From positions 62,001-126,000 of the forward strand of contig JANQKP010000006.1 in assembly GCA_028281045.1 (NCBI GenBank): a DNA stretch of 64,000 nt, given 5' to 3'. Shown piece after piece: positions 1 to 64,000 of this stretch (positions are counted from its first letter, which is position 1; each line of letters opens with the position of its first letter). The position numbers were made by a program, and so were the translations under genes. The notes beneath the pieces are model-generated. The model was not told the DNA's origin. It searched no databases and saw only the letters and a list, made by a program, of their open reading frames with translations. This stretch comes from Candidatus Altimarinota bacterium (GTDB lineage: Bacteria > Patescibacteriota > Gracilibacteria > UM-FILTER-43-11).

Positions 1-126
1 TGGCGTAAATAAAAAGTATTCGTTCGTTTTATCTACTTTCGCAAGTCCACGAAGTAAATTTCTAGTGTACTGTCCAATGCCGGTGTAAGGATGGATTAAA
101 AACCTAGCCTGGATTCCAATTCTCAT
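1..126 (-). CDS. Glycosyltransferase family 4 N-terminus (partial)
   Basis: The minus strand from base 126 encodes 42 residues that run off the left edge of the window. They begin MRIGIQARFL and continue with HPYTGIGQYTRNLL, the typical N-terminal strand and Gly-rich turn of GT4 (GT-B fold) glycosyltransferases, where the loop binds the acceptor. The ATG lies 2 nt after the murG stop, so it is the third gene of an ftsW-murG operon. This position suggests a role in cell-wall or surface glycan synthesis. Only the first strand and turn are visible, so donor and acceptor cannot be named. Confidence 0.75.
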   Translation of the reverse strand, partial: MRIGIQARFLIHPYTGIGQYTRNLLRGLAKVDKTNEYFLFTP

Positions 127-128
127 AA

Positions 129-1169
129 TTAGCTTAAAATTAGATCAGCAAGTTCCTCGGTCGCATGTGGACGAGAAAGTTCTTTAAGCGATTTTTTCAT
201 CGCTTCTCTTTGGGCTTCATTTTGCCATAGCCCATTTAATAACTTAAATAGTTTTTCATCTTTTAAAACAATACTTCCGCCATGGTCTTCAAAGTATTTT
301 GCATTCAGCTCTTGGTCTTTATTAATTTTCAGCGGAAGAAGCACGTTTGGTTTTTGTACTAGTGCTAGCTCATAAAGTGAATTTGCTCCCGCTCTACCAA
401 AGACCATATCCGTAATCGCATAAATGTCTTTGAGCTCATCTTCTAAGTACGTGAACTGCTTGTAATTTGCATGTTCTAACTTGGTTTCTTTACCTTTTCC
501 AGTGACATGAATCACCTGGAAAACGCTTACAATTTGGTCAAAGTCTCTAGCCAGTAAATCGTTTACTTCTAGGGCTCCAAGGCTTCCTCCCCATACCAGT
601 AGCACTGGTTTTTCAGCGTTAAATCCAGTGAGTTTGTAACCTTTTTCTTTGCTTCCTCCTAGAATAGAACTGCGCACAGGGTTTCCTGTAAATTGTACCT
701 TTTTACCGGTCGCTACATTGGGGAATGAAATACAAATCGTTTCTGCAAAACGAGAGCAAATACGATTAGATAACCCCATGGTGCTATCGGCTTCGTGCAG
801 AAGAATGCGCTTTCTAAAAAGGGCTGCAGCTAGTACCACCGGCACAGATACAAAACCTCCTTTAGAAAAAACAACGTCTGGTTTAAAGCGAAGCATAATC
901 CCTAGGCTTTGAAAAAATCCTAGGATTAATAGGAATGGGTCTACAAAGTTTCTCCAAGAAAAATAACGGCGAAGCTTCCCTGTAAAAATCGCTTTAAAAG
1001 GTAGCCCAGAAGGGGCAACCACTTCTTGGTCTAACTTGGATCTAGATCCCACATAAAGAAATTCTAAGTTGGAATCTTTCTCTTTAAGTGCGGACGCGAT
1101 AGCGAGGTTGGGTACGACGTGTCCCGCCGATCCTCCTCCGACTAGCAAAATGCGTTTCGACTTCTGCAT
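129..1169 (-). CDS. murG: MurG, undecaprenyl-PP-MurNAc-pentapeptide GlcNAc transferase
   Basis: This 346-residue protein transfers GlcNAc from UDP-GlcNAc to lipid I to make lipid II on the inner face of the membrane. The N-terminal glycine loop GGGSAGH (residues 11-17), the acceptor-side HEADSTMGLSN segment (about 125) and the C-terminal donor-binding GRAGANSLYELA (about 258-269) are all MurG features. Length is normal for the family. The start is fixed by the glycine loop, so its first 86 bases truly overlap the end of ftsW in another frame. It is flanked by ftsW upstream and a GT4 gene downstream. There is no ribosome binding site; translation is probably coupled to ftsW. Confidence 0.95.
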   Translation of the reverse strand: MQKSKRILLVGGGSAGHVVPNLAIASALKEKDSNLEFLYVGSRSKLDQEVVAPSGLPFKAIFTGKLRRYFSWRNFVDPFLLILGFFQSLGIMLRFKPDVVFSKGGFVSVPVVLAAALFRKRILLHEADSTMGLSNRICSRFAETICISFPNVATGKKVQFTGNPVRSSILGGSKEKGYKLTGFNAEKPVLLVWGGSLGALEVNDLLARDFDQIVSVFQVIHVTGKGKETKLEHANYKQFTYLEDELKDIYAITDMVFGRAGANSLYELALVQKPNVLLPLKINKDQELNAKYFEDHGGSIVLKDEKLFKLLNGLWQNEAQREAMKKSLKELSRPHATEELADLILS

Positions 1170-2334
1170 AACGAGAAATATTAAGTAAAACTCCGGCGGC
1201 TAGCATATTCGCAAGAAGCGAAGAGCCACCATAAGAAATAAAAGGTAGGGTAATCCCTGTAAGCGGTAAAATAGCGATATTTACCCCTATGTTAATGAAA
1301 GCTTGGAAAGCGAACCAAGAGGTGATTCCAACCGCTACTAGCATTTCAAAACGATTACGAGCGCGCCCTGCAATAGAGTAGCCACGCCAAGCGATAATGA
1401 GGTAAGCAATAACAAAGAAAGAGACGCGGAAGAATCCCAGTTCTTCAGCGGCAGCGGCAAAAATGGTATCTGATTGTACCTCTGGTAAGTATCCAAATTT
1501 TTGAATAGATTTTCCAAATCCGGTTCCAAAGAAGCCTCCAGATCCAATGGCAATTAAGGCCTGTTTCACCTGGAAACCAATGTTCAGCGGATCAATACTT
1601 GGATCTAAGAACGCCAAGAAACGATTGCGAATATACTCCTTACTCATAATGATCGGATACGCCATAAGGGCTGCAAGTAAGGCTCCTCCAAAGAGGTGAA
1701 GTACTCTACCTCCAGCAGCGAAGAACATCGTCGCTGCAATAGTAGAAATCACGAGTACAGATCCAAAGTCAGGCTGCATAGCCAGAAGAATCACTACCGA
1801 ACTTAAAAGAATCGTAAACGGCATAAATCCATACTGGAAAGATTGCACCAGCTCTTGTCTTTTTTCCATCCATACCGCCAGGTAAAAGATAAGCCCAAGC
1901 TTCACGAATTCCGCGGGCTGAAGCGATGGCAGGAATGGAAGTAAGATCCAACTGGTACTGGTTCCATAGTTCGCTCCAATCCCTGGTAAGAACAGGGCGA
2001 TTAAAAGGAAAATACCCAGAATAAACAGGGGCATCGCGGCTTTTTTCCAAATCCCCATAGGCAAATACATAGCCACAATCCACACGGGAATCGCAATAAA
2101 CACACGGATCATATGGCGCCATAAATAGAAGCTATTGCTGGGCTCTTCAAGAAGCCCAGCACGTACCATACCTTCTGTCAGCTGATACGATTCATAAACA
2201 CTCACACTCGAGATCATTACAATCCCAAACAGCATCAAAGCAAAAATGGTAATCGCCAGTGTTTTATCGATCTGTCTTTTTCTCAAGAAGATGTTATTGT
2301 TTATAGCGTGTCGAGTATACCTAATTTTACCCAT
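1084..2334 (-). CDS. ftsW: FtsW/RodA-family lipid II polymerase
   Basis: This 416-residue SEDS protein has about ten membrane segments. SEDS proteins polymerise lipid II into glycan strands with a partner class B PBP. Visible family motifs are the SWILLPFLPSLQPAEF segment (about 127-143) and the C-terminal TGITLPFISYGGSSLLANM (about 361-379). FtsW is favoured over RodA because murG follows directly, as in dcw clusters. The last 25 residues are a basic Arg-rich tail encoded over the first 86 bases of murG. Its ATG shares two bases with the ATG of the divergent lspA (CCATGG), so it must have little or no leader. Confidence 0.92.
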   Translation of the reverse strand: MGKIRYTRHAINNNIFLRKRQIDKTLAITIFALMLFGIVMISSVSVYESYQLTEGMVRAGLLEEPSNSFYLWRHMIRVFIAIPVWIVAMYLPMGIWKKAAMPLFILGIFLLIALFLPGIGANYGTSTSWILLPFLPSLQPAEFVKLGLIFYLAVWMEKRQELVQSFQYGFMPFTILLSSVVILLAMQPDFGSVLVISTIAATMFFAAGGRVLHLFGGALLAALMAYPIIMSKEYIRNRFLAFLDPSIDPLNIGFQVKQALIAIGSGGFFGTGFGKSIQKFGYLPEVQSDTIFAAAAEELGFFRVSFFVIAYLIIAWRGYSIAGRARNRFEMLVAVGITSWFAFQAFINIGVNIAILPLTGITLPFISYGGSSLLANMLAAGVLLNISRYAEVETHFASRRRIGGTRRTQPRYRVRT

Positions 2335-2791
2335 GGAGCACAGTAAATTTAATCCCTATTCGGTCTTTATTCTCACCTTCATTTTTTACCTCGGTTTAGA
2401 CCTTGGAACAAAAGGAATGATAAATAGTAGTGCCTTTGAAAATAAGGTGCTAATCGAAGGCCTTTTGGAGTTTAAAAAAACAGCCAATACAGGCATTGCT
2501 TTCAGCATCGATTTCCCTAAGGAAATCATCATTGGGGTCTCTATTTTAATCATCGTAGCGCTGCTTTACTTTGGATTCGAATACTTCAACGTTAAAAAGA
2601 ATTTCTTAAATCAATTCTTATTCGGTATAATTATCGGTGGAGCTTCTGGGAATTTAGTAGAAAGAATTACCGAAGGTGCTGTCACTGATTTCATTGCCGT
2701 TTCATCCTTTCCAGTGTTCAATATCGCAGATATTGGAATCACCGTTGGGCTCCTAATACTCTTCCTCCGCTCTTACAAAACTATAAATTAA
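2333..2791 (+). CDS. lspA: Lipoprotein signal peptidase (LspA)
   Basis: This 152-residue inner-membrane aspartyl protease cleaves prolipoproteins before the lipidated Cys. It has four hydrophobic segments. Family motifs are LDLGTK near residue 20, TANTGIAF, GGASGNLVERI, and the two catalytic Asp in VTDFI and NIADIG. The start MEHSKF is chosen because residues upstream of it would lie inside ftsW and are not LspA-like. Its substrates could include the lipobox proteins at 7351, 35848 and 43192. A TATACC -10-like box at 2316-2321 leaves a leader of only about 5 nt. Divergent from ftsW, with overlapping start codons. Confidence 0.93.
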   Translation: MEHSKFNPYSVFILTFIFYLGLDLGTKGMINSSAFENKVLIEGLLEFKKTANTGIAFSIDFPKEIIIGVSILIIVALLYFGFEYFNVKKNFLNQFLFGIIIGGASGNLVERITEGAVTDFIAVSSFPVFNIADIGITVGLLILFLRSYKTIN

Positions 2792-2797
2792 AACAAA

Positions 2798-3514
2798 ATG
2801 AACGAAAAAAGACCTTTAACTTTCTCTCTTTTCCTCCTTAGACTTCTAAGTGGATTTACAGGTGGAATTGCCGGAACCCTAGCGGTGTTTGTGGTGTATT
2901 TCCTATTCCTTTCACTACTTCCAGCAGGAGAAGAAACTTCTCTTTCTGTTTTCTTCATTATTGTTATTGCGTTCCTAGGAACCCTTACCGCCAATACCGT
3001 AGCAGCCCTTATGGTGAGCTTTTTAGATAGCGAAAAATATAGTCGTAGAAAAACCATGCTCACGCAGGTATTTCTTTTTAATCTCATTTTGTTCTTCCTA
3101 ACCATTCCACTTTATATGCTTGGAATTACCTTAGGAATTACAGAGGGTATTGCCGCCATGCACCTACTACTTAGTGCTTTTGTTTCTGCGCTTATTCTAG
3201 AAATCCTAGCCGGATACGAATACAGCTTGGTAGGAGTTTATAGTGTTTCTCTTGGAATCTTTGTCACCATTGGCCTAGCCCTTGTAGCCATGAGCCTAGA
3301 AGTAGAATCTGTAACCTTGCTATTTGCTGCTATGCCTGCCGTATGGGTAACGCTTCAGCTCGTTTCTGGAATTACAGAACTCATTTACGACAACTTCCTT
3401 CGCTTCTACGGCGTAGACGCGCTCAACACAAAAACAGACCTTGGTGGAGACTCTGAGGTAGATGTTGAAGACGAAGAGGAAGACAATACAGAAGACGAAA
3501 CAGACGGAGAATAA
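2798..3514 (+). CDS. Polytopic membrane protein with acidic C-terminal tail, unknown
   Basis: I do not recognise this 238-residue protein. It has about six hydrophobic helices spanning residues 10-205. A C-terminal cytoplasmic tail of about 25 residues is almost entirely Asp and Glu (EVDVEDEEEDNTEDE). It starts 6 nt after lspA and is followed 9 nt later by another small membrane protein, so the three form one transcript. There is no signal peptidase site or enzymatic motif. The acidic tail resembles those on LemA and the 8944 protein in this window and may bind basic partners; that is inference only. Confidence 0.7.
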   Translation: MNEKRPLTFSLFLLRLLSGFTGGIAGTLAVFVVYFLFLSLLPAGEETSLSVFFIIVIAFLGTLTANTVAALMVSFLDSEKYSRRKTMLTQVFLFNLILFFLTIPLYMLGITLGITEGIAAMHLLLSAFVSALILEILAGYEYSLVGVYSVSLGIFVTIGLALVAMSLEVESVTLLFAAMPAVWVTLQLVSGITELIYDNFLRFYGVDALNTKTDLGGDSEVDVEDEEEDNTEDETDGE

Positions 3515-3523
3515 TAAATTACT

Positions 3524-3715
3524 ATGATGAAAACAGCTAAAAAAGTTATTGGAATCATTTCTATTGCTAGCGTAATTGCTTTCACCTTACTCGCTATTTT
3601 AGGTATTTGGGGGATCGTAGATAAAGACGTTGCTTTAAGAGCCGTGAGCACTGTAGCAGTGGTCTTTTTTGCCTCTCTAATGAGCCTAATCATTATCGGC
3701 AAAGTAGATAAATAA
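3524..3715 (+). CDS. Small two-helix membrane protein, unknown
   Basis: This 63-residue protein has two hydrophobic helices (about 8-30 and 38-58) joined by a short charged loop, VDKDVALR, and ends in KVDK. It lies 9 nt downstream of the preceding membrane protein in the lspA transcript. Its stop codon abuts the stop of the convergent tsaE gene with no spacer. ATG ATG at the start allows either of two initiation codons. No family is recognised. The clean spacing and typical codon use argue that it is real. Confidence 0.6.
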   Translation: MMKTAKKVIGIISIASVIAFTLLAILGIWGIVDKDVALRAVSTVAVVFFASLMSLIIIGKVDK

Positions 3716-4759
3716 CTATTTCACGTCTTTTGGCTCAATCTCTAGATCTTTAAAGAGTTCTTTTTCTAATTCTAGTAGGGCTTTTTCTGCATCTTCATAA
3801 AAAGCCGTGGTCTCTGGATTATCAAACTGAGCGTAGCGCTTACGTCCATCTTCAAAACGATCTTTTATAGAAACAATTTTGTCATGTGCGGCTCTTTTAT
3901 CTCCGTACATCACTAGTGTTTTTTCCATGGTGTCGTAGGCATTTGGCTCTGTCATAAAGCGCTCGCTAATGTGCAACCGAATCACTTCGGCTGTTTCCGT
4001 GTAACCATCTGCAATCAGGGCTTCATTGGCAATATCAGAATGATTTCTTCCGGCATGTTCTGCTCTTAACTCTTCCCAACGCTTCATTTTCTCATCCGTA
4101 ATTTCTTCAGAAAAATAACTCGTGTCTAAATCTTTAAAATCACAAACGCGGGCCATGTCATGAAGGAGTCCAGCGGTTTCTACTAGGTCTAAATTAATCA
4201 CCTGTCCTTGTTTTACCTGAGCTTCTGCCACTTGCATGGCAACACTTGCTACGGCCTTGCAGTGCTCTTGCACATGCATAGGCGTAGCCCATTTTTCATA
4301 GTAGCTCTCAACAGCCTCCATAGGCACTACACGGGGGTCTACAAACTCTATGTTAATACCACGGTAATTGCCTTCAATTTTAAAATCTACACGTATGAAA
4401 CGCTCTGGGTAGTTGCCTTCAAGGCGGTCTGCCCACTCCACTAAATTAATAACGGTGTCATCGTTAATGGTTTCTTCAAAACCCAGAGAAGTTAAATCAT
4501 CTCCAGGGTTTAAACGATATAAATCATAATGATAAACTGGGGCTTTTTTAGCCGCATAATGGTTCACATAGGCAAACGTAGGACTTTTAATGGTCATCTC
4601 TATTCCAAGCTCCTCAGCCATCCCTTTTACAAAGGTAGTTTTTCCTGCTCCAAGGTCACCAAAAAGAAGCACTGTATCTCCTGGTCTTAAGCGTTTGGCT
4701 AGCTCATGGCCAAGTCTTTCTGTTGCCTGTGGATTTTGGGTCACATAAGTCGCAAACAT
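3716..4759 (-). CDS. tsaE: TsaE ATPase fused to a C-terminal HD-domain phosphohydrolase
   Basis: Residues 1-140 are TsaE, the P-loop ATPase that drives the TsaB-TsaD complex making t6A37 on ANN-decoding tRNAs. The Walker A is GDLGAGKTT (34-42), followed by SPTFAYVN, YHYDLYRL and LVEWADR, all canonical. Residues 160-347 form an HD domain with HVQEH (162-166), the HD pair in LLHDMAR (H200, D201) and later His residues in HAGRNHSD and IRLHISERF. TsaE is normally about 150 residues, so this is a fusion. The start MFATYV is chosen because upstream codons lie in the terminator and cassette of the neighbouring GC-rich gene. A TTTAAT box sits about 10 nt before the ATG. The HD substrate is unknown. 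Confidence 0.9.
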   Translation of the reverse strand: MFATYVTQNPQATERLGHELAKRLRPGDTVLLFGDLGAGKTTFVKGMAEELGIEMTIKSPTFAYVNHYAAKKAPVYHYDLYRLNPGDDLTSLGFEETINDDTVINLVEWADRLEGNYPERFIRVDFKIEGNYRGINIEFVDPRVVPMEAVESYYEKWATPMHVQEHCKAVASVAMQVAEAQVKQGQVINLDLVETAGLLHDMARVCDFKDLDTSYFSEEITDEKMKRWEELRAEHAGRNHSDIANEALIADGYTETAEVIRLHISERFMTEPNAYDTMEKTLVMYGDKRAAHDKIVSIKDRFEDGRKRYAQFDNPETTAFYEDAEKALLELEKELFKDLEIEPKDVK

Positions 4760-4770
4760 AGTGTCATCAT

Positions 4771-4816
4771 TAAAGCAAAAGGTGGGGTCCGGCGCAACAG
4801 CACCGGACGACCCACC
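4771..4816 (-). terminator. Strong GC-rich terminator of the 4833 cassette gene
   Basis: On the minus strand, GGTGGG plus CCGGAC (complement of 4803-4816) pair with the complement of 4781-4792 to give a 12-bp stem with a 2-nt bulge and a 10-nt loop. A short U-run follows (4777-4780). It lies just after the stop of the GC-rich gene and directly before the tsaE start. It would insulate tsaE from readthrough. Confidence 0.8.
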
Positions 4817-4832
4817 TTCAGCGATCATTTGA

Positions 4833-5894
4833 TTACAAGGGAATCTTCCAACTGCGGACGATCCCTTGATGAATACCTCCTCCCGGATCTCCTTGCACAA
4901 AGACGGGACGAGGGGCGTGATTGCCATAGCCAATTTGCAGAAGCACCGCGTCGACACCAATGGGAATGAAGGTGCGCGATTGCGAGTTGCTGAAAATCGA
5001 CTTTTCGCCACGAGGATCCTTGTCCATAAGCAGGGTCAGGGTCAGCTCGAGGGCGTTGGCAGGCACAAAGGGTACGCCGAGTTTGTTGCTGAAGTTCCTA
5101 AGTTCAGCCATTTGGTCGTTCCAATCCAGGCCGTCGGCGAACGGCTTGGCAAAGCGGATAGCAGCGCCGCCTTGGGTTTCATAAACGAAAACGAAGTGAG
5201 TGTTTGGCAGGGTGCCCATATCATCGGGACCAAGGTAGCGCATCATACGCGCCCAGGTCGGGGCAGCCGGCGGCGGGGTGGTAGTAGAGGGAGTCGCGGT
5301 CGTCGAAGGCGCAGGCGGAATTGCTGCGTTATAAATATCGACCAGGCTCATCTCTTTTGGATCAACGGTGATGTACAGGCCTTCGCGCTTGAGTCGCGCG
5401 ACGGTCCACCCAAGTTCGCTAATCCAATAATTCACCACCGCGCACAGCGTGTTCACATCGTTCATGACTTTCATTACTTCGCCGGGTCCGTACGAATGGC
5501 TACCGAAGCGCTCAGTCAAATGGTCCACGCCAAAGACGGGAATGCCATTTTTCTTGAGAAACTCGCAGGAGTCCACCCGATACGTGATGCCGAATTCTGG
5601 CCGCGCCGAGACTGAGGTCGTGGGCAGCGGCAGGGCGACATACGGATACGGATAGATGGCAGCCGGTACGCTGGCAACAACGGTTGCGGGCGTCGGCGCA
5701 GTGGCCGCCGCGGTCGCAGTCACCGAGGTCGTTGCCGTCATGGACGTAGCGGAGGTAATGGAAGTGGTTGAAGTAATGCTAGCGGTTGCAGTCGTTGCCG
5801 TAGGTCCGGTAACGGTCGCTTGTGCCAGCGCTTGAGTTGGGAAAAGGGCGTGGGCACACAAAAGGCCCAGCACCGCAAATACAAATCGGGTCAT
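4833..5894 (-). CDS. GC-rich secreted protein of unknown function (foreign-looking cassette)
   Basis: This is a 353-residue protein I do not recognise. A signal peptide covers residues 1-25 (MTRFVFAVLGLLCA, cleavage near ALAQA). A low-complexity Thr/Ser/Ala stretch (about 26-80) and a Pro/Thr linker (about 195-215) flank two globular regions with two Cys in total. The start at 5894 is chosen because AGGAC lies 7 nt upstream; an in-frame ATG at 5921 lacks one. The gene is much richer in G+C than its neighbours, prefers GCG, CGC and CTG codons, and has only one CTAG. It has its own promoter, SD and GC-rich terminator. These traits suggest acquisition from another lineage. Secretion to the cell surface is likely. 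Confidence 0.85.
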   Translation of the reverse strand: MTRFVFAVLGLLCAHALFPTQALAQATVTGPTATTATASITSTTSITSATSMTATTSVTATAAATAPTPATVVASVPAAIYPYPYVALPLPTTSVSARPEFGITYRVDSCEFLKKNGIPVFGVDHLTERFGSHSYGPGEVMKVMNDVNTLCAVVNYWISELGWTVARLKREGLYITVDPKEMSLVDIYNAAIPPAPSTTATPSTTTPPPAAPTWARMMRYLGPDDMGTLPNTHFVFVYETQGGAAIRFAKPFADGLDWNDQMAELRNFSNKLGVPFVPANALELTLTLLMDKDPRGEKSIFSNSQSRTFIPIGVDAVLLQIGYGNHAPRPVFVQGDPGGGIHQGIVRSWKIPL

Positions 5895-5948
5895 CGGTTT
5901 GTCCTTATTTAAAATGTGCAAGAGGGGGGTTAAGTTAGTTCAAATGAT

Positions 5949-6022
5949 CGCTGTCTAGTATTGGTAAATCTGTGGTGCCAAGAAGGCCCAAACAGATTTA
6001 GAAAACCAATAGTCAGACAGCG
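5949..6022 (-). repeat. Long imperfect inverted repeat in the cassette leader
   Basis: CGCTGTCT (5949-5956) pairs with AGACAGCG (6015-6022). ATTGGT pairs with ACCAAT, and AAATCTGT with ACAGATTT, further in. The result is a hairpin of about 22 bp with small internal loops and a GC-rich 14-nt apical loop. It lies in the 5' UTR between the promoter at 6075-6103 and the SD site of the GC-rich gene. It could be a regulatory leader, an mRNA stabiliser or a recombination site. I see no integron core sites. Confidence 0.7.
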
Positions 6023-6074
6023 AAAAGCTACAGTGTAAAAGATCAGCTAATCCCAGAGAGAGAATTAGAATGAA

Positions 6075-6103
6075 ATTCTACCATATTTTGCTATTTTCGT
6101 CAA
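6075..6103 (-). promoter_or_regulatory. Sigma70-type promoter of the GC-rich cassette
   Basis: On the minus strand TTGACG (6098-6103) is followed by a 17-nt spacer and TAGAAT (6075-6080). This predicts a transcript starting near 6068 with a leader of about 170 nt, containing the long inverted repeat, before the SD-preceded ATG at 5894. It lies just upstream (in the minus sense) of the cassette and just after the O-antigen-ligase-like gene stop. Confidence 0.7.
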
Positions 6104-6110
6104 TAGAAGC

Positions 6111-7331
6111 TTAAGAGCCATTTTTTAGCCTAAAAAAGCCTAAAACAAGGGCTATAAGCATCATTCCAACGAAGCTATCTACCAAGAAGTGGTCGAAGGG
6201 GGCCAGGAAGAGAAGCATAAGAATAGGGATGTCCGTTCCCCTATGCCAATAGGTGTAAATCAGCAGGGTAATTGCTGCCAAAAACAAGATGAATCCTTGA
6301 ATTCCAAGCTCTGCGAGCATCAAGAAATAGCTGTTGTGTACTGGCTGAAACTCCCATGGAGCTAGTTTTTTATCAGCGTAATTTTCTATTTCTAGAGTGT
6401 AATTACGAATCCCTACTCCAAATGGATGATCTACTACAATCTCTTGGGCAATCACATTCTGATCTAATCTTTCCTGAAGTGATGCATCTTCTGAGCTCAG
6501 TAAATGACTACTGGCAAACAGCCATGTATTTACTAGGGCTAGCAGCACCAATAAGAATAAACTGAAGCTCTTTTTAACCTGTACGGATTTAATAGCCTTA
6601 AAGACAATCGCAAGTAAAAGCGTAAGCCCACCTACTACGTAAGCCGCATCGCTTCCTGCAAGGAAAAGCCCCAAAATAACCACAGCCAGCCAAAAGAGTT
6701 TGTTGGAATATTTAAGATAAGAAAGCGCTATAAAAAAGACAGTAAGCAGGTATCCGGCCAGGATATTTGGGTGAGGCAGAAGACCATAACCACGCACTTG
6801 TTTACCAGTTTCTAAATCAATTTTAGCCACCCCAGGAACTTCTGGGCCAATAGCACTTTCACCCAGTAACCCTAGACCAATAGAGCCATTGATTTCTACC
6901 TGTATAAAGGCCAGAAAAACTTGGAAAAGTGCTCCCACAAGAAGCAGCTTTACCATTAGTTTTTCTTCTAAAACTTTATTGGTAATTAGCATGTAAAACG
7001 CCACGAGTTCAAAAAGGCGTAGCACAAAGAATCCAGCCAGAGTTATGTCTCCAAAGAGACCGGTCACCAGCACTGCGTTTAGAGCAAATAAGCCTAAAAT
7101 AATCCAAAGATAATTGTGCCCAATATCCACTTTTACCTTGTTCTTTTTCTTGTCATAAAGCCACAGTAAAAAGGCTACAAGTAGGAGTAGTTCTGGCACA
7201 TAAACAAATTCAGCTACCCAGGGGTTAAATTTCCCAAAGCGGTAGGCCGCATCTTCATACGCTAAAAAACGAATCGAAAAAGGAAACGTGAAGAGGAATA
7301 GGCCAAATAAAGTCTGAATGAATTTATGCAT
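6111..7331 (-). CDS. O-antigen ligase / Wzy-type polymerase family membrane protein
   Basis: This 406-residue protein has about eleven hydrophobic helices. A large extracytoplasmic loop near residues 295-335 contains HPFGVGIRNY and PVHNSYFLMLAELG. This Wzy_C arrangement is typical of O-antigen ligases and polysaccharide polymerases, where the His and Arg in the loop take part in glycan transfer from a lipid carrier. The gene follows the solute-binding protein gene by 19 nt and is probably co-transcribed with it. Together with the GT4, GT2, epimerase and nucleotidyltransferase genes in the window, it suggests a surface polysaccharide or S-layer glycan. Substrate unknown. Confidence 0.82.
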   Translation of the reverse strand: MHKFIQTLFGLFLFTFPFSIRFLAYEDAAYRFGKFNPWVAEFVYVPELLLLVAFLLWLYDKKKNKVKVDIGHNYLWIILGLFALNAVLVTGLFGDITLAGFFVLRLFELVAFYMLITNKVLEEKLMVKLLLVGALFQVFLAFIQVEINGSIGLGLLGESAIGPEVPGVAKIDLETGKQVRGYGLLPHPNILAGYLLTVFFIALSYLKYSNKLFWLAVVILGLFLAGSDAAYVVGGLTLLLAIVFKAIKSVQVKKSFSLFLLVLLALVNTWLFASSHLLSSEDASLQERLDQNVIAQEIVVDHPFGVGIRNYTLEIENYADKKLAPWEFQPVHNSYFLMLAELGIQGFILFLAAITLLIYTYWHRGTDIPILMLLFLAPFDHFLVDSFVGMMLIALVLGFFRLKNGS

Positions 7332-7350
7332 CGGACTTATTATAACTTAT

Positions 7351-8826
7351 TTATTGGTAGATCTTACAATCGGTTTCAGTCCCCACAAGCCCTTTCTGCT
7401 TACGAATCACACAGGTGATTTTTTCTTGTGCCGTAGTCAGCGCTTGGCTTGGTGTTGAAACATTTCTCACGACTTCTTGAATCGCATCAGAGAAGACTTT
7501 TTTGTAAACTTCGTCGTCGTAAATTTTGTAGCTTTTCGCAAACGGTGCTTGGAAAGCAAAGGTTCCAAAATTAGGCTCTGTTTGCTGCTGAGCCACCATA
7601 TCTTTACGACTTGTTGGGCGATTGGTTTTCTTGTGATAAGTCTGAAGAGCATCTGCAGAAGTCAAGAACTGCACTAGGCTCCACGCTTCACGAGACATGT
7701 CTGAAGTACGTGCTACCACCAGTGGGAAATAACTCGCATAAGTGTCTCTACGTGTGCTCTCTGCACCACTTACAAGCTGTGGAAAAGGTGCAATGCCAAC
7801 GTCTGCTATATTGATGTGCTTATCTCCTGATTTTTGCTTATTTTGAATCGTGGTATCAATCACATCATACAGGTATGGATAACTGAGAATCATGGCTACT
7901 TTTCCACGTACAAATGGGTCTACTTCTTTTGCTTCTGGGGCGAATCCAGTAATGGTGTCATTCCAGCTGTAGTTTTTAAAGCTAGGCAACGCAAAACTAG
8001 TAAATTGGGTAAAGGCATCTATCCCTGGAGTTTCTCCGCCTTGGCGATTGGCAAAGATCGCACGTTCTTCTTTTTCATCGTAAAATTCCGTTCCAAATTG
8101 CAGCATCATTCCATAAAGAATGTCTACCGCAGAAGAAAGATTATCTGCGCGTCCAAGGGCAATTCCTGCTAGAGAGAATCTTTCTGGGCTATTGTCTTTT
8201 TTAGTTAAATTAAAGACCTGATCTTTAATTTCTTCCCATAAATTTCCTGGATTATCTGTGGTGGCTAGAAGATCTTTAAAGATCTGTTTGTTGTAGTAAA
8301 TCGCCAGATTATCTATGGCCAGCGGCATTCCGTAGATCTGTTCATCTACAATAAGATCTTCGGCAGCTTGTTGGAAATACACTTGGCGGAATAGGTCTGC
8401 GTTCATCACAATCGGCTGATCTAGTGGCAGTGGTTGTACCTTTTTCGTAAACGAAGGCATCCATGAATTGTGAATCATAAATACATCTGGTCCTTCTCCA
8501 TCTGCAATCTCAGAAATCACAAGATCTTTATATTCTTCTTGGTTCACAAACTTTTTAACACGTACCACGGTTCCTGGATTTTGACTCTGGAAAGCTTGAA
8601 TTTGCTCCTGATAATCATCGGTATTATCAAAGAGCACATACATGTTAATTTCCTTTAATCCTTGTTGCGCTACCTCGGGCTCCTCAAAGGCACAATCGGT
8701 TCTAAACTCAGGGGTTCCTGGAATATTTTCAGTAGGCTTAGGACATTTTGGCTGGCAACCAGACAAAAAGACCGGTGCGGCTAGCACCAGAATTATCGCT
8801 AAAGCTTTTGAGATTCTTTTGTTCAT
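7351..8826 (-). CDS. Extracellular solute-binding lipoprotein (ABC type 1, sugar-like)
   Basis: This 491-residue protein begins with a lipoprotein signal (hydrophobic 8-20, lipobox FLSGC, lipidated Cys near 24). Next come features of family 1 solute-binding proteins: NMYVLFDN strand, YKDLVISEIADGEGPDVFMI (about 100-120), and a C-terminal ASYFPLVVARTS plus SLVQFLTSADAL helix. The family binds sugars or oligosaccharides for ABC importers. No permease or ATPase gene is nearby, so it is an orphan here; it may use a distant transporter or have a surface role. It is read from its own promoter region at 8827-8890, divergent from the 8944 gene. Confidence 0.85.
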   Translation of the reverse strand: MNKRISKALAIILVLAAPVFLSGCQPKCPKPTENIPGTPEFRTDCAFEEPEVAQQGLKEINMYVLFDNTDDYQEQIQAFQSQNPGTVVRVKKFVNQEEYKDLVISEIADGEGPDVFMIHNSWMPSFTKKVQPLPLDQPIVMNADLFRQVYFQQAAEDLIVDEQIYGMPLAIDNLAIYYNKQIFKDLLATTDNPGNLWEEIKDQVFNLTKKDNSPERFSLAGIALGRADNLSSAVDILYGMMLQFGTEFYDEKEERAIFANRQGGETPGIDAFTQFTSFALPSFKNYSWNDTITGFAPEAKEVDPFVRGKVAMILSYPYLYDVIDTTIQNKQKSGDKHINIADVGIAPFPQLVSGAESTRRDTYASYFPLVVARTSDMSREAWSLVQFLTSADALQTYHKKTNRPTSRKDMVAQQQTEPNFGTFAFQAPFAKSYKIYDDEVYKKVFSDAIQEVVRNVSTPSQALTTAQEKITCVIRKQKGLVGTETDCKIYQ

Positions 8827-8894
8827 ATTTTTTCTTTTTGTCTAGACCACTATACCTTAAATAGGGTTAAATTACAATGAAACCGGGCATATTA

Positions 8895-8922
8895 TTGACA
8901 AATTTAAAAAAATTAGTAAAAT
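8895..8922 (+). promoter_or_regulatory. Promoter with C-rich mini-leader
   Basis: TTGACA (8895-8900), a 16-nt spacer and TAAAAT (8917-8922) precede the 8944 gene. The predicted leader is only about 15 nt and ends in CCCTCCT immediately before ATG. This is the sequence of the 16S anti-SD rather than its complement. The same layout occurs at 16091 and 22072. Confidence 0.75.
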
Positions 8923-8943
8923 ATACACACTTTAATCCCTCCT

Positions 8944-9327
8944 ATGGTAAATAATATTTTATCTTTTGTTGAAGAGGCAGACCTCGTTTCAGCACTAGCT
9001 ACCTACAAAAAGCCAAAATATCAGCTCGCTACTCCTCTTTTGAAAACCTTCAGAGAAAGTATGGAATCTCTTATGGACAGCTGTGGAAAGGAGGAGGCCA
9101 ACGCCTATGATGGAGACCTGCGGAAGGTGAGGGACATTATTTTTAAGGCCCTAAAAGAGGCTAAGGCAAAAGGCGCAAAGCATAAACTCGTTGACGGACT
9201 TAATGAGGTGTTTCAGCTCATTACACCGGACGGGGAGGCCATTGTTGAAGAAGAAATTCTAGACGAAGATCTAGAATTGGATAATGAAATAGGAAACCTG
9301 GAGGGGGACGATGACAATCTTGGTTAG
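8944..9327 (+). CDS. Small acidic helical protein, unknown
   Basis: I do not recognise this 127-residue soluble protein. Residues 1-95 are predicted helical with mixed charge (for example RKVRDIIFKALKEAKAKG). Residues 96-127 form a strongly acidic tail ending GDDDNLG. It has its own near-consensus promoter and a C-rich leader. Its TAG overlaps the TAA of the convergent GT2 gene (9324-9327). Size, promoter and codon use support a real gene. The acidic tail recalls other tails in this window. Confidence 0.72.
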   Translation: MVNNILSFVEEADLVSALATYKKPKYQLATPLLKTFRESMESLMDSCGKEEANAYDGDLRKVRDIIFKALKEAKAKGAKHKLVDGLNEVFQLITPDGEAIVEEEILDEDLELDNEIGNLEGDDDNLG

Positions 9328-10175
9328 GCTTGCTTAACCCCTTTCATAAATTCTTTCCAACTTCTTACTTTGTAGTAGAAGTTTTTTCCAAATAGACGAG
9401 TGAGTGGTAGTAGTAATCCAGCCAATTGGATCAGGCTTTTTTTAATGCCCTTAGGAATGACATTTACTTCTGGCTGAAGCTTTTCAAATTGCACAGCACT
9501 TTGACCTACTTTGTTCATTTTCTTAGGTAAATCTTGAGGCAATATTTCATGATGATGATACGCTTTTGCCTCTGGTTCGTAGAAAAGTTTCATATCGTGA
9601 TTCTTAAAGAGCCTGTACCCCACCTCTATATCTTCCCAGCCATAAACCCTAAAGTGCGCATTGAATTGTTCTTTGTTAAAGAAGCTTTTTCTAAGCGAAA
9701 TATTAGACGTATAAAAGAACTTGTAAGGTTCTTTTTCTACGAAACCTAGGCTTAAAAAATTGTAGCCAAATTGCCATCCAGATTTTTCTAAAAATAGCAT
9801 GTAATCGTTAATTTTTAGATCCGTATCCCAGGTAGAAAACCCAAGCACCACTACGTTTTCTGCGTTATTTTTTTCGTGAGCTTCTACATGTTTTTTCACC
9901 CAACCCGGCTCAACAAAAATATCGTCTCCAATAAAGGCCACCAGCTCACCTTTGGCCTCTAAAACGCCGCGGTTTCTGGCTACGCCTTGCCCAGAATTAG
10001 ATTGGTGTATGTATTTCACATCTTCAAAAGAAGTCACCACTTCTTTGGTGTGATCTTCGCTTCCATCGTCTACAACAATCACTTCAAAATCCCCTTCTTG
10101 TGCAGTTAATTTTTCTAAACAAGTTTTTAAGGTGTCTGCCCGATTATATGTAGGAATTACGACTGAAACTTTCAT
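9324..10175 (-). CDS. Glycosyltransferase family 2
   Basis: This 283-residue GT-A enzyme starts MKVSVVIPTYNRADTL, the classic GT2 N-terminus. VVDDGSEDHTKE (about 35-46) supplies the first nucleotide-binding Asp. A DDI motif follows at GDDIFVEPGW (about 89-98), in the DXD position. GWEDIEVGYR (about 180) matches the ED acceptor/base motif. It lacks membrane helices but has a basic C-terminus. Likely role: adding a sugar to a surface glycan or lipid-linked intermediate; donor unknown. It is divergent from cysS with about 50 nt between. Confidence 0.88.
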   Translation of the reverse strand: MKVSVVIPTYNRADTLKTCLEKLTAQEGDFEVIVVDDGSEDHTKEVVTSFEDVKYIHQSNSGQGVARNRGVLEAKGELVAFIGDDIFVEPGWVKKHVEAHEKNNAENVVVLGFSTWDTDLKINDYMLFLEKSGWQFGYNFLSLGFVEKEPYKFFYTSNISLRKSFFNKEQFNAHFRVYGWEDIEVGYRLFKNHDMKLFYEPEAKAYHHHEILPQDLPKKMNKVGQSAVQFEKLQPEVNVIPKGIKKSLIQLAGLLLPLTRLFGKNFYYKVRSWKEFMKGVKQA

Positions 10176-10225
10176 TAGGGGTGTCTCTGGGTTATCATGC
10201 TTTTTGCAGTATAACTTATTATAGC

Positions 10226-11605
10226 TTGCAGCTCTACAACACCCTTACAAGACAGAAAGAGGAATTTAAACCGGTGGACCCATCGGAGGTGAAACTTTAT
10301 ACCTGTGGTCCTACAGTTTATAACTATGCTCACATTGGTAATTTACGTACTTATGTGTTCGAAGATATTCTTCGAAGAGCCTTGGAATTTGAAGGGTACC
10401 TGGTAAATCATGTGATGAATATCACAGATGTAGGCCACCTGACTTCTGATGCTGATGAAGGAGAAGATAAGATGGCCAAAGGGGCCAAACGTGAAGGAAA
10501 AACCGTTTGGGAAATTGCAGAGTATTATACGGATGCTTTTATGCGTGATATGGAAAGACTCAACCTAGTTGAGCCTCATATTAAATGTAAAGCCACCGAT
10601 CATATTCAAGAAATGATCGACCAAGTAAAAGCACTGGAAGAAAACGGATATGCCTACGTGGCCGAAAACGGAAACGTTTATTTTGATACCGCGGCCTTTA
10701 AAGATTACGGAGCTATGGCTCAATTAGATAAACAAAATCTAGAAGCAGGAGCCCGTATTGAAGTGGATGACAACAAAAGAAGTCCAAATGATTTTGCGCT
10801 TTGGTTTGTAACCAGTAAGCACGGAGATCAGGATATGCAATGGGACAGTCCTTGGGGGCGTGGTTTCCCGGGTTGGCACATTGAATGTAGTGCGATGTCG
10901 ACCAGATATTTGGGAGAACAATTCGATATTCACTGTGGTGGAATCGATCACATCCCTGTGCATCACACCAATGAAATCGCTCAAGCCGAAGGAGCCACTG
11001 GAAAAAGCCCGTGGGTAAATACATGGCTACATGGAAACTTTTTAGTACTCGAAGATGACGCCAAAATGGCAAAATCTGGAGAGAACTTTTTAACACTTCA
11101 GGCGCTTATAGATAAAGGTTACGACCCACTGGAATACCGCTATTTTATTTTAAATGCCCACTACAGAAAAGAACTTCGTTTTAGTTTCGATAATCTAGAT
11201 GCGGCTAAGACAGCGCTTCGTAAATTAAAGACCAAAGTGGCTAAACTTGGGGACAAGGAAGGCACTGAAAATGCTAAATATATTGAAGAATTTTCTGCAG
11301 CGGTTTCAGATGATTTAAATATGCCTCAGGCGCTAGCCATCACTTGGAATTTAATCGATGATGACAAAGTTTCAGATGAAGACAAGCTAGCCACTATTAA
11401 AAAATTCGACACAGTACTTGGGCTAAAACTAGACGAAGAAATTCACTTTGAAATTCCAGCAGAAGTGCAGGAGCTTCTGATAGAAAGAAACAAGGCCAGA
11501 GAAGATAAAGACTGGGCTAAATCCGATGAACTCAGAGATAAAATCGATGAACTTGGATTTGAAGTTCACGATTTATCTGGAGGATCTGAAGTAAGACCAA
11601 AATAA
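10226..11605 (+). CDS. cysS: Cysteinyl-tRNA synthetase
   Basis: This class I synthetase charges tRNA-Cys. The HIGH motif appears as AHIGN (near residue 36) after TCGPTVYN, whose Cys is a zinc ligand. The other ligands fit WHIECSAMS and the [15 protein letters not shown] segment. KMSKS appears as KMAKS. The start is taken as TTG at 10226 ([14 protein letters not shown]), matching the conserved family N-terminus; an in-frame GTG at 10181 would add 15 unrelated residues. TATAAC and TATTAT boxes at 10210-10222 lie directly upstream, suggesting a nearly leaderless message. About 459 residues, normal length. pdxT follows 4 nt downstream. Confidence 0.93.
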
Positions 11606-11609
11606 CTTT

Positions 11610-12134
11610 ATGACAGTAGGTGTTTTTGCATTACAGGGTTCTTTTAAAGAGCATTTAGACATGCTTAAAAAGATGAATGTAAATGCGCATGAAGTGCGCA
11701 GCCTTAAGGATGTTGAAGATGTGGATGCCGTTATTCTCCCAGGAGGAGAAAGCACCACTTTAATGAAACTCCTTAAAAAAACAGGCCTAGATGAATGGCT
11801 TCAAAATACAGAAGCCCCTATTTATGGAACCTGTGCCGGCATGATTGCGCTTTCTAACGGATACCTCAATTTAATTGATGTAGATGTGGAAAGAAATGCC
11901 TATGGAACTCAGCAAGACAGCTTTGAAGACACCATTATGTTTTATAAAAAACCTTTCCCGGGGATTTTTATTAGAGCTCCTAAATTCGCCAAAATTGGGG
12001 ATGAGGTGGAGGTGTTGGCTAAGCATATCGATGAACCTGTGCTGGCTAAACAAGGCAGAGTAATGGTGGGAACTTTTCATCCAGAGCTCACAGGTGAAAC
12101 CGCCATACATGAGTTCTTCCTTTCATTGGCCTAA
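11610..12134 (+). CDS. pdxT: PdxT-type glutamine amidotransferase
   Basis: This 174-residue class I glutaminase normally feeds ammonia to PdxS to make pyridoxal 5'-phosphate from ribose 5-phosphate, glyceraldehyde 3-phosphate and glutamine. Motifs are LQGSFKEH (8-15), PGGEST (oxyanion loop), the nucleophile Cys in YGTCAGMI (about 74) and the His/Glu pair in GTFHPELT. It is slightly shorter than typical PdxT (about 190). pdxS is not in this window; a missing partner here does not show that it is missing from the genome. It follows cysS by 4 nt and is likely co-transcribed. Confidence 0.88.
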   Translation: MTVGVFALQGSFKEHLDMLKKMNVNAHEVRSLKDVEDVDAVILPGGESTTLMKLLKKTGLDEWLQNTEAPIYGTCAGMIALSNGYLNLIDVDVERNAYGTQQDSFEDTIMFYKKPFPGIFIRAPKFAKIGDEVEVLAKHIDEPVLAKQGRVMVGTFHPELTGETAIHEFFLSLA

Positions 12135-58418: not shown

Positions 58419-58507
58419 AGATACTTCGGGAAAACTGTCTTTATGACTGGTTTGACCGTGATCTTTCACACACTGGTGTTAGCTCATACAAGCTTAAGGA
58501 GCTTCGT

Positions 58508-59080
58508 ATGGACTCAATACTCAACTCAATGACCCTAGAAGAACAAGTCATGTTTGCCATCGGCATGGTGGGCATGGTTGTTGTTCTGATTGGAATGACA
58601 ATCGATTATGAATCCCAGCGAGTTAAACGCCAAAACATCCTGTCAGCGGGCTCGTTCCTGCTGGTGCTGATGTCAGCTTATCCAAAGCTGCACATCGCAT
58701 TTTTTGTTTTGGAGTCGATCGCTGGCGTAGTTGGTTTACTCAACCGAAAAAATGGCGAAGAAAAAGTGATCAAGGCTGTACTGATCGTTGGATCTATAGC
58801 TGGTGTCACACTAACCCTTGGTCAGGGATTCGCTTTGGCAAATTGGTTTGCTACCTTTGGGCTCATTGGTATTGCTATTGGTTACGGCTCACCTGCCGAA
58901 ACCGATGGTGGCCATCAATACAAAGCCCTCACGATTGGCGCTATTTTCATGATTATGTACAGCGCCATCGAAATCGATGCTGGTATCCAGCAAGCCATCC
59001 CTTTTCTCATTCTCAATATCATCTCGGCCTGTATAACAGGACGGGATTACGCCATCTTCAAATGGCGGCCAACCCCCTGA
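58508..59080 (+). CDS. Polytopic membrane protein of unknown function (foreign-looking cassette)
   Basis: This 190-residue protein has about six hydrophobic helices (first at about 16-34, VMFAIGMVGMVVVLIGM) and a short polar tail KWRPTP. I do not recognise it. Unlike native genes it has a strong SD (AAGGAG, 58496-58501), higher G+C, one CTAG and a UGA stop. It has its own promoter, 85-nt leader and GC-rich terminator. It is laid out like the secreted-protein cassette at 4833. Likely acquired from another lineage. Confidence 0.8.
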   Translation: MDSILNSMTLEEQVMFAIGMVGMVVVLIGMTIDYESQRVKRQNILSAGSFLLVLMSAYPKLHIAFFVLESIAGVVGLLNRKNGEEKVIKAVLIVGSIAGVTLTLGQGFALANWFATFGLIGIAIGYGSPAETDGGHQYKALTIGAIFMIMYSAIEIDAGIQQAIPFLILNIISACITGRDYAIFKWRPTP

Positions 59081-59102
59081 GTTAGCACCATGTGTGTCAT
59101 TT

Positions 59103-62261: not shown

Positions 62262-64000
62262 ATGGATATCTCTTTGAAAATTAAGAGAGTAATTGCTTCT
62301 GTGAGCGCGTTTGCACTTCTTGTTGCTTACACTCCACTAGCTCTTGCTCAAACGTTCAACGATGTACCATCTGATGCATGGTTCTTCGATTACGTTGAAC
62401 AAGGAGTTGATCAAGGGATTTTCGATTCATCTGACAATTTCCGTCCAGGTGACGCACTTAACCGTGCTGAACTAGTTAAGATTGTAGTTACTGCAATCGA
62501 CGGTCTTGCTGGATACGAAGCTCCTGCTACTCCAACCTTTGACGATGTTCCTACAGATGCATGGTTCTACGACTACGTAGAAGCTGCTGTAGCTGAAGGA
62601 ATCGTTTCTGGTTACACTGATGCGAACGGTAACCTTACCGGTCAATTCGGTCCTGGTGACACGGTTAACCGTGCTGCCGCTACTAAGATCCTTGTAAACG
62701 CTTTCGCGATTGCTACTGATCTTAACCCAGGAAACACCTTTGGTGATGTTTCTTCTGGTGACTGGTTCCACGACTTCGTGGTTACTGCGTACAACCAATC
62801 TGTACTAGATGGTTACGATAACGGTAACTTCGGTCCTGCTGATCCTGTTACTCGTGCACAAGTTGCAAAACTTACTCAAACTGCACAAAACCCAGTTGAA
62901 CGTGTGGTTGCTTCTGACGATGACGACGAACCAGTTGTTTCATCTTCTGACGGTGACCTAGAAGTGTCTCTAAACGATGACACTGCTGCTTCTGCAACAG
63001 TTCCTCGTTCTGGACACGCGATCGACCTTATCTCTATCGACCTTACTGCAGCTGACGACGATGTTGTTCTTAACAACCTAGTTGTTACTCGTGGTGGTGT
63101 AGGGGTAGCTTCTGACTGGGAAAACCTATACATCTACGACGGTACTGAGCGTCTTACTACTGGACGTTCAATCAACAGTGATACCAACGTAGCTACTTTC
63201 GCTATCAACGTTGAAATTGATGCTGGTACTACTAAATCACTACGTGTTGTAGGTGACATGGCGTCTACTGCTACAGCGACTAACCAACATTACTTCTACG
63301 TAGCTTCAGCTTCTGACGTTTCTTCAAACGCTCAAGCTGTTGTTGGTGACTTCCCTGTAACTGGTAACACCTTCACTACTGGTCAACAAACAGTAACTTC
63401 TCTTACTGTTGCTACCGGTACTCAGCCTGCTAACCCACAAGTTGGAGAGCAAGGTGCTGAAATCGCTGCAGTTAAAATGACTGCTGGAGCTGAAAATGAC
63501 ATCGCTCTACACCAAATCACTCTTACTCAAAACGAATCACTTTCTGTTTCTAATCTAGAAAACCTAGAACTAATTGTAGCTGGTGAAACTGTTGCGACTG
63601 CTGATGGATTCGGTGATTCAGAACGTGTTACTTTCGTTCTAGACACTCCATACATCATTCCTGAAGGACAAATCAAAAACTTCTTCGTGAATGCTGACAT
63701 CGTTGGAGGTCGCCCAGGTGATGATCAAATCGAACTTTACCTTGATGAAGACAGTGATGTAATCGCTATCGATCAACAATACGGTTTCGGTGCTTCAATC
63801 ACTAACAACCTAACCACTGCTCTAGTAACTGAACTTACTCTTGAAGGTGGTGACATTACTATTACTGATAACGGTCCTGCTGCAACTCAAATTGCACAGA
63901 ACGACGACAATGTGCCTCTATTTGACATCACTGTTGTTTCTGACCGTCACGTTCTAGTTAAAGAAATGGATCTTACTGCTCGTATTGGTATCGGAGGAGA
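62262..64000 (+). CDS. Large S-layer-homology surface protein (N-terminal part)
   Basis: At least 579 residues are encoded, running off the right edge. A signal peptide (1-30, cleavage near ALAQ) precedes three SLH domains (about 32-84, 87-145 and 148-205; for example TFNDVPSDAWFFDYVEQG). A poly-Asp linker follows, then beta-rich repeats with TTKSLRVVGDM-like strands. This is the layout of an S-layer protein. Codons are strongly biased to CGT, AAC, ATC, GGT and TCT, unlike most genes here, pointing to very high expression. Long structured leader upstream. Probably the main S-layer subunit. Confidence 0.93.
   Translation, partial: MDISLKIKRVIASVSAFALLVAYTPLALAQTFNDVPSDAWFFDYVEQGVDQGIFDSSDNFRPGDALNRAELVKIVVTAIDGLAGYEAPATPTFDDVPTDAWFYDYVEAAVAEGIVSGYTDANGNLTGQFGPGDTVNRAAATKILVNAFAIATDLNPGNTFGDVSSGDWFHDFVVTAYNQSVLDGYDNGNFGPADPVTRAQVAKLTQTAQNPVERVVASDDDDEPVVSSSDGDLEVSLNDDTAASATVPRSGHAIDLISIDLTAADDDVVLNNLVVTRGGVGVASDWENLYIYDGTERLTTGRSINSDTNVATFAINVEIDAGTTKSLRVVGDMASTATATNQHYFYVASASDVSSNAQAVVGDFPVTGNTFTTGQQTVTSLTVATGTQPANPQVGEQGAEIAAVKMTAGAENDIALHQITLTQNESLSVSNLENLELIVAGETVATADGFGDSERVTFVLDTPYIIPEGQIKNFFVNADIVGGRPGDDQIELYLDEDSDVIAIDQQYGFGASITNNLTTALVTELTLEGGDITITDNGPAATQIAQNDDNVPLFDITVVSDRHVLVKEMDLTARIGIGG

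Follow-up and report, generated by a model that had tools for sequence, protein, structure and literature searches.

The window analysed here is a stretch of 64,000 nucleotides from the genome G000. At 4771-6103 it carries a minus-strand unit composed of a promoter, a leader hairpin, an SD, an ORF of 353 codons and a terminator-like hairpin. The unit is flanked upstream by wzy (O-antigen ligase family, 6111-7331) and downstream by tsaE-HD (3716-4759), both also on the minus strand. GC at the locus is 0.55-0.57 against about 0.41, and the GC3 of the ORF (0.63) is the highest among the 727 ORFs of at least 100 aa in 861 kb of G000, for which the median is 0.359 and the robust sd 0.051. An earlier note on this DNA had described a unit of one gene that stands apart in composition and has signals of its own, and our analysis bears this out for the GC3, the promoter, the hairpin and the SD.

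The promoter, TTGACG-17-TAGAAT (6075-6103, minus strand), came from a promoter scan in which promoter-like sites were overall not more numerous than in shuffled sequence. The 46 bp around it are 83% alike to another promoter region of the genome (G000:C9:45044-45089). A boxA-like element, TGATCTTTTACA, lies at 6034-6045 on the minus strand with 0 mismatches to the consensus TGNTCTTTNAMA, which was itself derived in part from units of the class described below. It is followed on the same strand by the leader hairpin (5948-6023; -36.9 kcal/mol, z -8.2, equalled by 0 of 200 shuffled sequences) and by the SD, AAGGAC, at 5901-5906, so the SD that the note had seen is present. The CDS runs on the minus strand from the ATG at 5894 to the TAA at 4833.

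The repeat finder returned a perfect 14-base inverted repeat whose arms lie on either side of the coding region. The leader arm b (5940-5953, minus strand) extends into the base of the hairpin in the leader. The trailer element c (4819-4832, minus strand) begins at the first base 3' of the stop codon, and this post-stop sequence can pair with the leader. The unit ends in a terminator-like GC-rich hairpin at about 4776-4818 on the minus strand (-36.6 kcal/mol, z -7.7). Its T-tract is broken and it was not among the terminator-scan results. The note had overlooked the boxA and the 14-base inverted repeat. Rfam 15 gave no match at gathering score in positions 1-12000 of the window, and further Rfam searches gave matches only below gathering score.

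The 353-aa product is a secreted, Thr/Ala/Pro-rich ORFan. As the note had it, this is a secreted protein of unknown function: no significant relative was found in Pfam, PHROGs, NCBIfam, PDB, plasmids, phages, viral contigs, genome contigs or the 57 relatives, the best nonsignificant scores being an E of 0.098 in PHROGs and of 0.99 in NCBIfam. The AlphaFold single-sequence model had a pLDDT of 37 and was useless.

Similar units across the genome

The stretches of G000 that we analysed cover 861 of 1207 kb (71% of the genome) and hold the 727 ORFs mentioned above. The GC3 distribution of these ORFs has a high tail. About 18 scattered units combine high GC3, an SD, a boxA and leader-trailer complementarity, and we refer to them as the class. 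A strong promoter, a boxA-like element and, 3' of the stop codon, a short trailer are common to them; a leader hairpin is often present and a terminator hairpin usually. In the remaining genes of G000, SD sites, boxA and complementarity were not found beyond about chance.

The features occur together. An SD at the first start or first ATG was present in 10 of the 18 ORFs with a GC3 z above 3 and in 20 of the 709 others (Fisher 1e-10); in G008 the corresponding counts were 3 of 4 high-GC3 ORFs and 0 of 134 others. Perfect boxA elements precede 6 of 37 SD-positive ORFs compared with 4 of 800 SD-negative ones, for ORFs of at least 60 aa (Fisher 9e-7). The anti-SD of the 16S rRNA is intact (G000:C8:14266), with the 16S located at a contig end. 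A Peregrinibacterium is counted among SD-scarce organisms in a passage of PMC10783764. The class also uses codons that the rest of G000 avoids, e.g. CGA, CGG, TTG and GTC. Low CTAG, to which the note had pointed, is a weak feature of the class genes (26 observed, 32 expected), and the rest of the genome has 2723 where 2480 are expected.

Most of the cargos are ORFans predicted to be membrane or exported proteins. The exceptions include NhaA in G000 and an aconitase and a HAMP-cyclase in relatives. A second unit is present in the window on the plus strand. It has a boxA, TGATCTTTCACA, at 58459-58470 and a CDS for a 190-aa membrane protein at 58508-59080 with the SD TTAAGGAG, and its 13-base trailer (59078-59090) pairs with the leader at 58474-58486, with two G-U pairs. 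Some units with unrelated cargos have leader stretches in common. This holds for L064:12022-13107 and L078:16054-16680 in G000 (29 nt at 93%) and equally for L080:7836 and L106:5437 (107 nt at 73%). Two class units, L080:14878-15631 and L081:5219-6070, adjoin tRNA genes (Leu-CAA and Glu-TTC), which may be chance.

Complementarity of leader and trailer

From a list of 38 G000 ORFs with an SD at the first start or a GC3 z above 3, 18 were taken into a duplex-energy test. We left out four high-GC3 ORFs lacking an SD (window:62472, L074:2735, L074:1097 and L107:5242) and 16 low-GC3 SD-positive ORFs lacking a boxA at up to 1 mismatch. The trailers of 12 of the 18 chosen units, and that of the focal unit, had already been inspected before the choice; L071:6899, a unit inspected along with the 12, was discarded because it was too short. 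For L077:6722 (nhaA) the leader used was that of the small ORF upstream of it. One of the omitted ORFs, at 62472-62798 of the window, has a GC3 of 0.61, carries neither SD nor promoter and is probably an antisense frame.

In 29 units selected on SD, boxA and GC3, the duplex energy of a unit's own leader and trailer was -18.9 compared with -13.9 for permuted pairs (0 of 20000 permutations as good). The 18 G000 units alone gave the same result (0 of 20000). With a 60 nt trailer and 31 units including those of relatives, we obtained a z of 12.7 (0 of 20000), and a z of 9.2 for G000 alone. To remove the bias of choice, the test was rerun on rule-chosen sets, from which ORFs too near the end of a stretch drop out. 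The set with an SD and either boxA or high GC3 (n=14) gave 23.6 against 17.8 ± 1.0 for permuted pairs (z 6.0, 0 of 5000). The set with SD and boxA (n=12) gave a z of 5.3 (1 of 5000) and the set chosen by GC3 alone (n=23) a z of 7.5 (0 of 5000). The controls showed no such excess, neither for SD in the absence of boxA or high GC3 (n=14, z -0.2) nor for boxA in the absence of SD (n=32, z 0.8). Among 654 background genes the duplex energy was -11.17 for own and -11.26 for permuted pairs, while three random sets of 60 background genes had z values of 1.8, 2.3 and 1.1, a slight excess for which we have no explanation. An earlier test with other sequence intervals was weak, with 5 of 13 units where 1 was expected; the focal gene was absent from that set because an extended tsaE frame overlapped it.

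Several units have a trailer that pairs either directly with boxA or with bases no more than a few away from it. About a third of the 31 units have no helix beyond chance, e.g. L080:7836, L106:5437, L102:13691 and the aconitase unit of G011. No common end sequence was found across the units: the repeat arms differ from unit to unit, and trailers are alike only among relatives of genus g9 and in short stretches. G-U wobble had been considered as a sign that the helices form in RNA and not DNA. An unbiased count of helix mismatches (G-U 7, A-C 9, other 9) did not support this, and since G-U is not in excess over A-C, the repeats may have a role at the DNA level.

The wzy-tsaE slot and class units in relatives

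A match to tsaE was found in 54 of 58 genomes of the same taxonomic class, G000 among them; of the 17 further genomes in its family, 16 had one. Synteny with these 16 relatives confirms the clean placement upstream of tsaE that the note had proposed. In 9 of the 16 (G001-G006, G012, G013 and G016) the gap between wzy and tsaE is about 2-255 bases, compared with 1351 in G000. Other ORFs fill it in two (G007 and G014). In the remaining five (G008, G009, G011, G015 and G017) a GC-rich, SD-led cassette lies upstream of tsaE. Since comparable cassettes occupy the same slot in five other genomes, a misassembly of the focal unit is unlikely. G012, whose slot is empty, has class units elsewhere.

The five cassettes have a common leader with promoter, boxA and hairpin. 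The hairpin covaries: of its 33 pairs, 15 have changes on both sides in one or more of the sequences. A covariance model of this leader found one match in each of these five genomes, always at the wzy-tsaE slot, and none in the other 52 of the 58 genomes; a weak match in G002 (E 0.002) was judged to be chance. All five carry, past the last stop codon, a short sequence complementary to the leader hairpin's 3' arm. The layout is the same in the focal unit, whose leader sequence is unrelated to theirs and which faces the other way relative to tsaE. Position alone is therefore no proof of orthology. The note had named homologues of host-like composition at this locus as evidence against its own reading; what we found are cassettes as compositionally distinct as the focal unit.

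Three cargos of genus g9 allowed us to follow GC3 over time. Their aa identity is 27-37% and their fourfold third-base identity 0.35-0.43, so that synonymous sites are saturated, and their GC3 is nevertheless 0.73, 0.74 and 0.73, compared with 0.45-0.62 for tsaE and wzy in the same genomes. Since GC3 was kept despite this saturation, the odd composition in g9, the one genus in which this was examined, is maintained and is not a residue of recent transfer. By analogy, the odd composition of the focal gene may likewise be maintained.

The nhaA gene is present in 6 of the 58 genomes, G000 included. In G001 and G009 the unit retains boxA, SD and a leader-trailer helix, of 17 and 13 bases respectively. 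In the G000 unit the leader and the trailer both differ from those of G001 and G009, yet they match each other. The copy in G012 keeps SD and boxA, with its frame cut and the trailer beyond the sequence seen, while that in G027, of another family, has an SD-like site and ordinary GC3. Further candidates for the class were found in G034 and G033 (other families), and no clear class units in G041 and G055. Two enzyme genes of relatives also have an SD and a perfect boxA: the aconitase gene of G011 (L050:1928-3865), a small genome, with a helix not beyond chance, and the HAMP and adenylate/guanylate cyclase gene of G012 (L150:9759-11402).

Readings of the class and known systems

We consider it reasonably probable that the focal unit is one of a dispersed, native class of mRNAs with rRNA-like ends, made of a boxA and a leader-trailer helix. 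The steps at the RNA level and the function proposed here are deduced from sequence. NusB, which is present in G000 (E 4.6e-30), would bind boxA together with S10 and keep the leader near RNA polymerase. The trailer, once transcribed, would pair with the leader, in several units at or beside boxA, and this pairing would free the complex and let the terminator work. The product would be a full-length message with closed, protected ends, translated from its SD. Its cargo would be a protein facing a partner or host cell, and a long-lived expression platform would carry cargos that evolve fast or get replaced. Our best guess at the benefit is protection and the delivery of only full-length host-facing messages. 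The usual anti-Rho purpose of boxA would not apply, since Rho is missing from G000; in a search for its RNA-binding domain it was missing from 57 of the 58 genomes of the taxonomic class. The sole match to this domain came from a fragmented genome that is 77% complete.

If this is correct, two sets of expression rules coexist in one small genome, SD-less ordinary genes and GC-rich SD-led messages that have boxA and paired ends and encode membrane and exported proteins. A device of rRNA transcription would serve mRNAs, and boxA would gain a purpose in Rho-less cells. The signature would also allow probable host-facing proteins to be listed for a group that can hardly be cultivated.

A different origin was implied by the note, which took the unit for an isolated foreign insert. 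In its general form, the units would be single genes recently acquired from SD-using, GC-richer bacteria, perhaps the hosts, with SD and GC3 as donor residue. High GC3, the SD and codons avoided elsewhere in the genome fit such a history, as do the mostly ORFan cargos and the slot that is empty in 9 of 16 relatives. Random imports, however, would not be expected to carry boxA and leader-trailer complementarity. The leader hairpin is conserved across genera where the cargo is not, boxA and SD of nhaA are kept across genera, and the GC3 of g9 outlasted synonymous saturation, so we regard recent acquisition as unlikely. The isolated insert itself does not agree with an architecture scattered through G000 or with the persistence of odd codon usage in g9. 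Another reading places the repeats in DNA, as the termini of small gene-carrying elements, either non-autonomous mobile or invertible ones, whose flipping would give phase variation. In the focal unit and in G011 the coding region lies between perfect 14-base repeats, G-U mismatches are not commoner than A-C ones, and the orientation at the slot in G000 is not that of the relatives. Against this, the repeat sequences vary by unit and offer no common recombinase site, the trailer is found next to the terminator or within it, the leader arm comes after boxA, and in the stretches read we noticed neither an inverted copy nor a recombinase nearby. Such elements seem to us quite improbable.

The units could also be messages for another cell, that is, stable end-closed RNAs or transferable DNA translated in the host under its codon usage and SD rule. 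The codon usage of the G000 class correlates better with that of the G011 class (r 0.89) than with its own genome (0.68), high GC3 is maintained in g9, and boxA persists in genomes that lack Rho. A case from the recoded G048 (UGA=Gly) points the same way. In this genome 86% of glycine-type codons are TGA, and 146 of 148 sampled ORFs have TGA in frame. The gene for a secreted glucosaminidase (PF01832, L185:11056-11580), with GGAG before its ATG, stands out among the 148 with 12 GGN and 0 in-frame TGA. It is a single gene with no convincing boxA, however, and could be a recent acquisition. The codons of the G008 class correlate less with those of the G000 class (0.62). No delivery system was found; the VirB4 model PF03135 had no match in G000, but only 1 of 14 controls matched. 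Delivered messages of this kind are in our opinion a long shot. The same very low probability applies to the fuller version, in which a second gene repertoire for the host is kept as silent rRNA-like RNAs or DNA units whose membrane and exported proteins are translated there after delivery. In that version the repertoire would follow the host in its SD sites and codon usage and, in UGA=Gly relatives, in its standard code as well. The recoded relatives make the idea of translation in the host directly testable, since class genes there either use or avoid TGA as glycine. The native, dispersed class of mRNAs with paired ends is the reading that we prefer to the lone foreign cassette, and the interpretation given in the note is partly supported.

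Our literature search found no publication on boxA-bearing, end-paired mRNAs in these bacteria. Phage morons are single-gene units with their own promoter and terminator and a foreign-looking GC. The class units resemble them in all of this, including one gene per unit, but have a conserved leader, boxA and trailer, and no phage context was seen. In the icaR mRNA of Staphylococcus aureus the 3' UTR reportedly pairs with the SD itself. The focal helix, in contrast, lies at -59 to -45, upstream of the SD (-12 to -7) and not on it, and the pairing here is a class trait joined to boxA. What the two have in common is a 3' UTR complementary to the 5' UTR within one mRNA, the 5'-3' UTR pairing of icaR being described in an excerpt of PMC3868564.

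In E. coli the Nus complex targets boxA outside rRNA, according to a part of PMC5725501, and the class likewise has boxA on transcripts other than rRNA. It differs in that its members form a set across the genome in which boxA goes with an SD, a shifted GC3 and trailers. The closest parallel is pre-16S rRNA. Antitermination complexes of E. coli resist termination of both the intrinsic and the Rho-dependent kind, and the helix between the pre-16S leader and trailer is essential, as stated in a section of PMC10250234. The class units differ from this in that there are many of them, that they enclose SD-led protein genes (in the focal unit a 353-codon ORF, not a structural RNA) and that their helices are mostly 10-20 bp. 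As far as that section of PMC10250234 describes pre-16S rRNA, they share with it a boxA that closely follows the promoter, helices in the leader, and a complementary leader and trailer around the product, in a genome where NusB is present.
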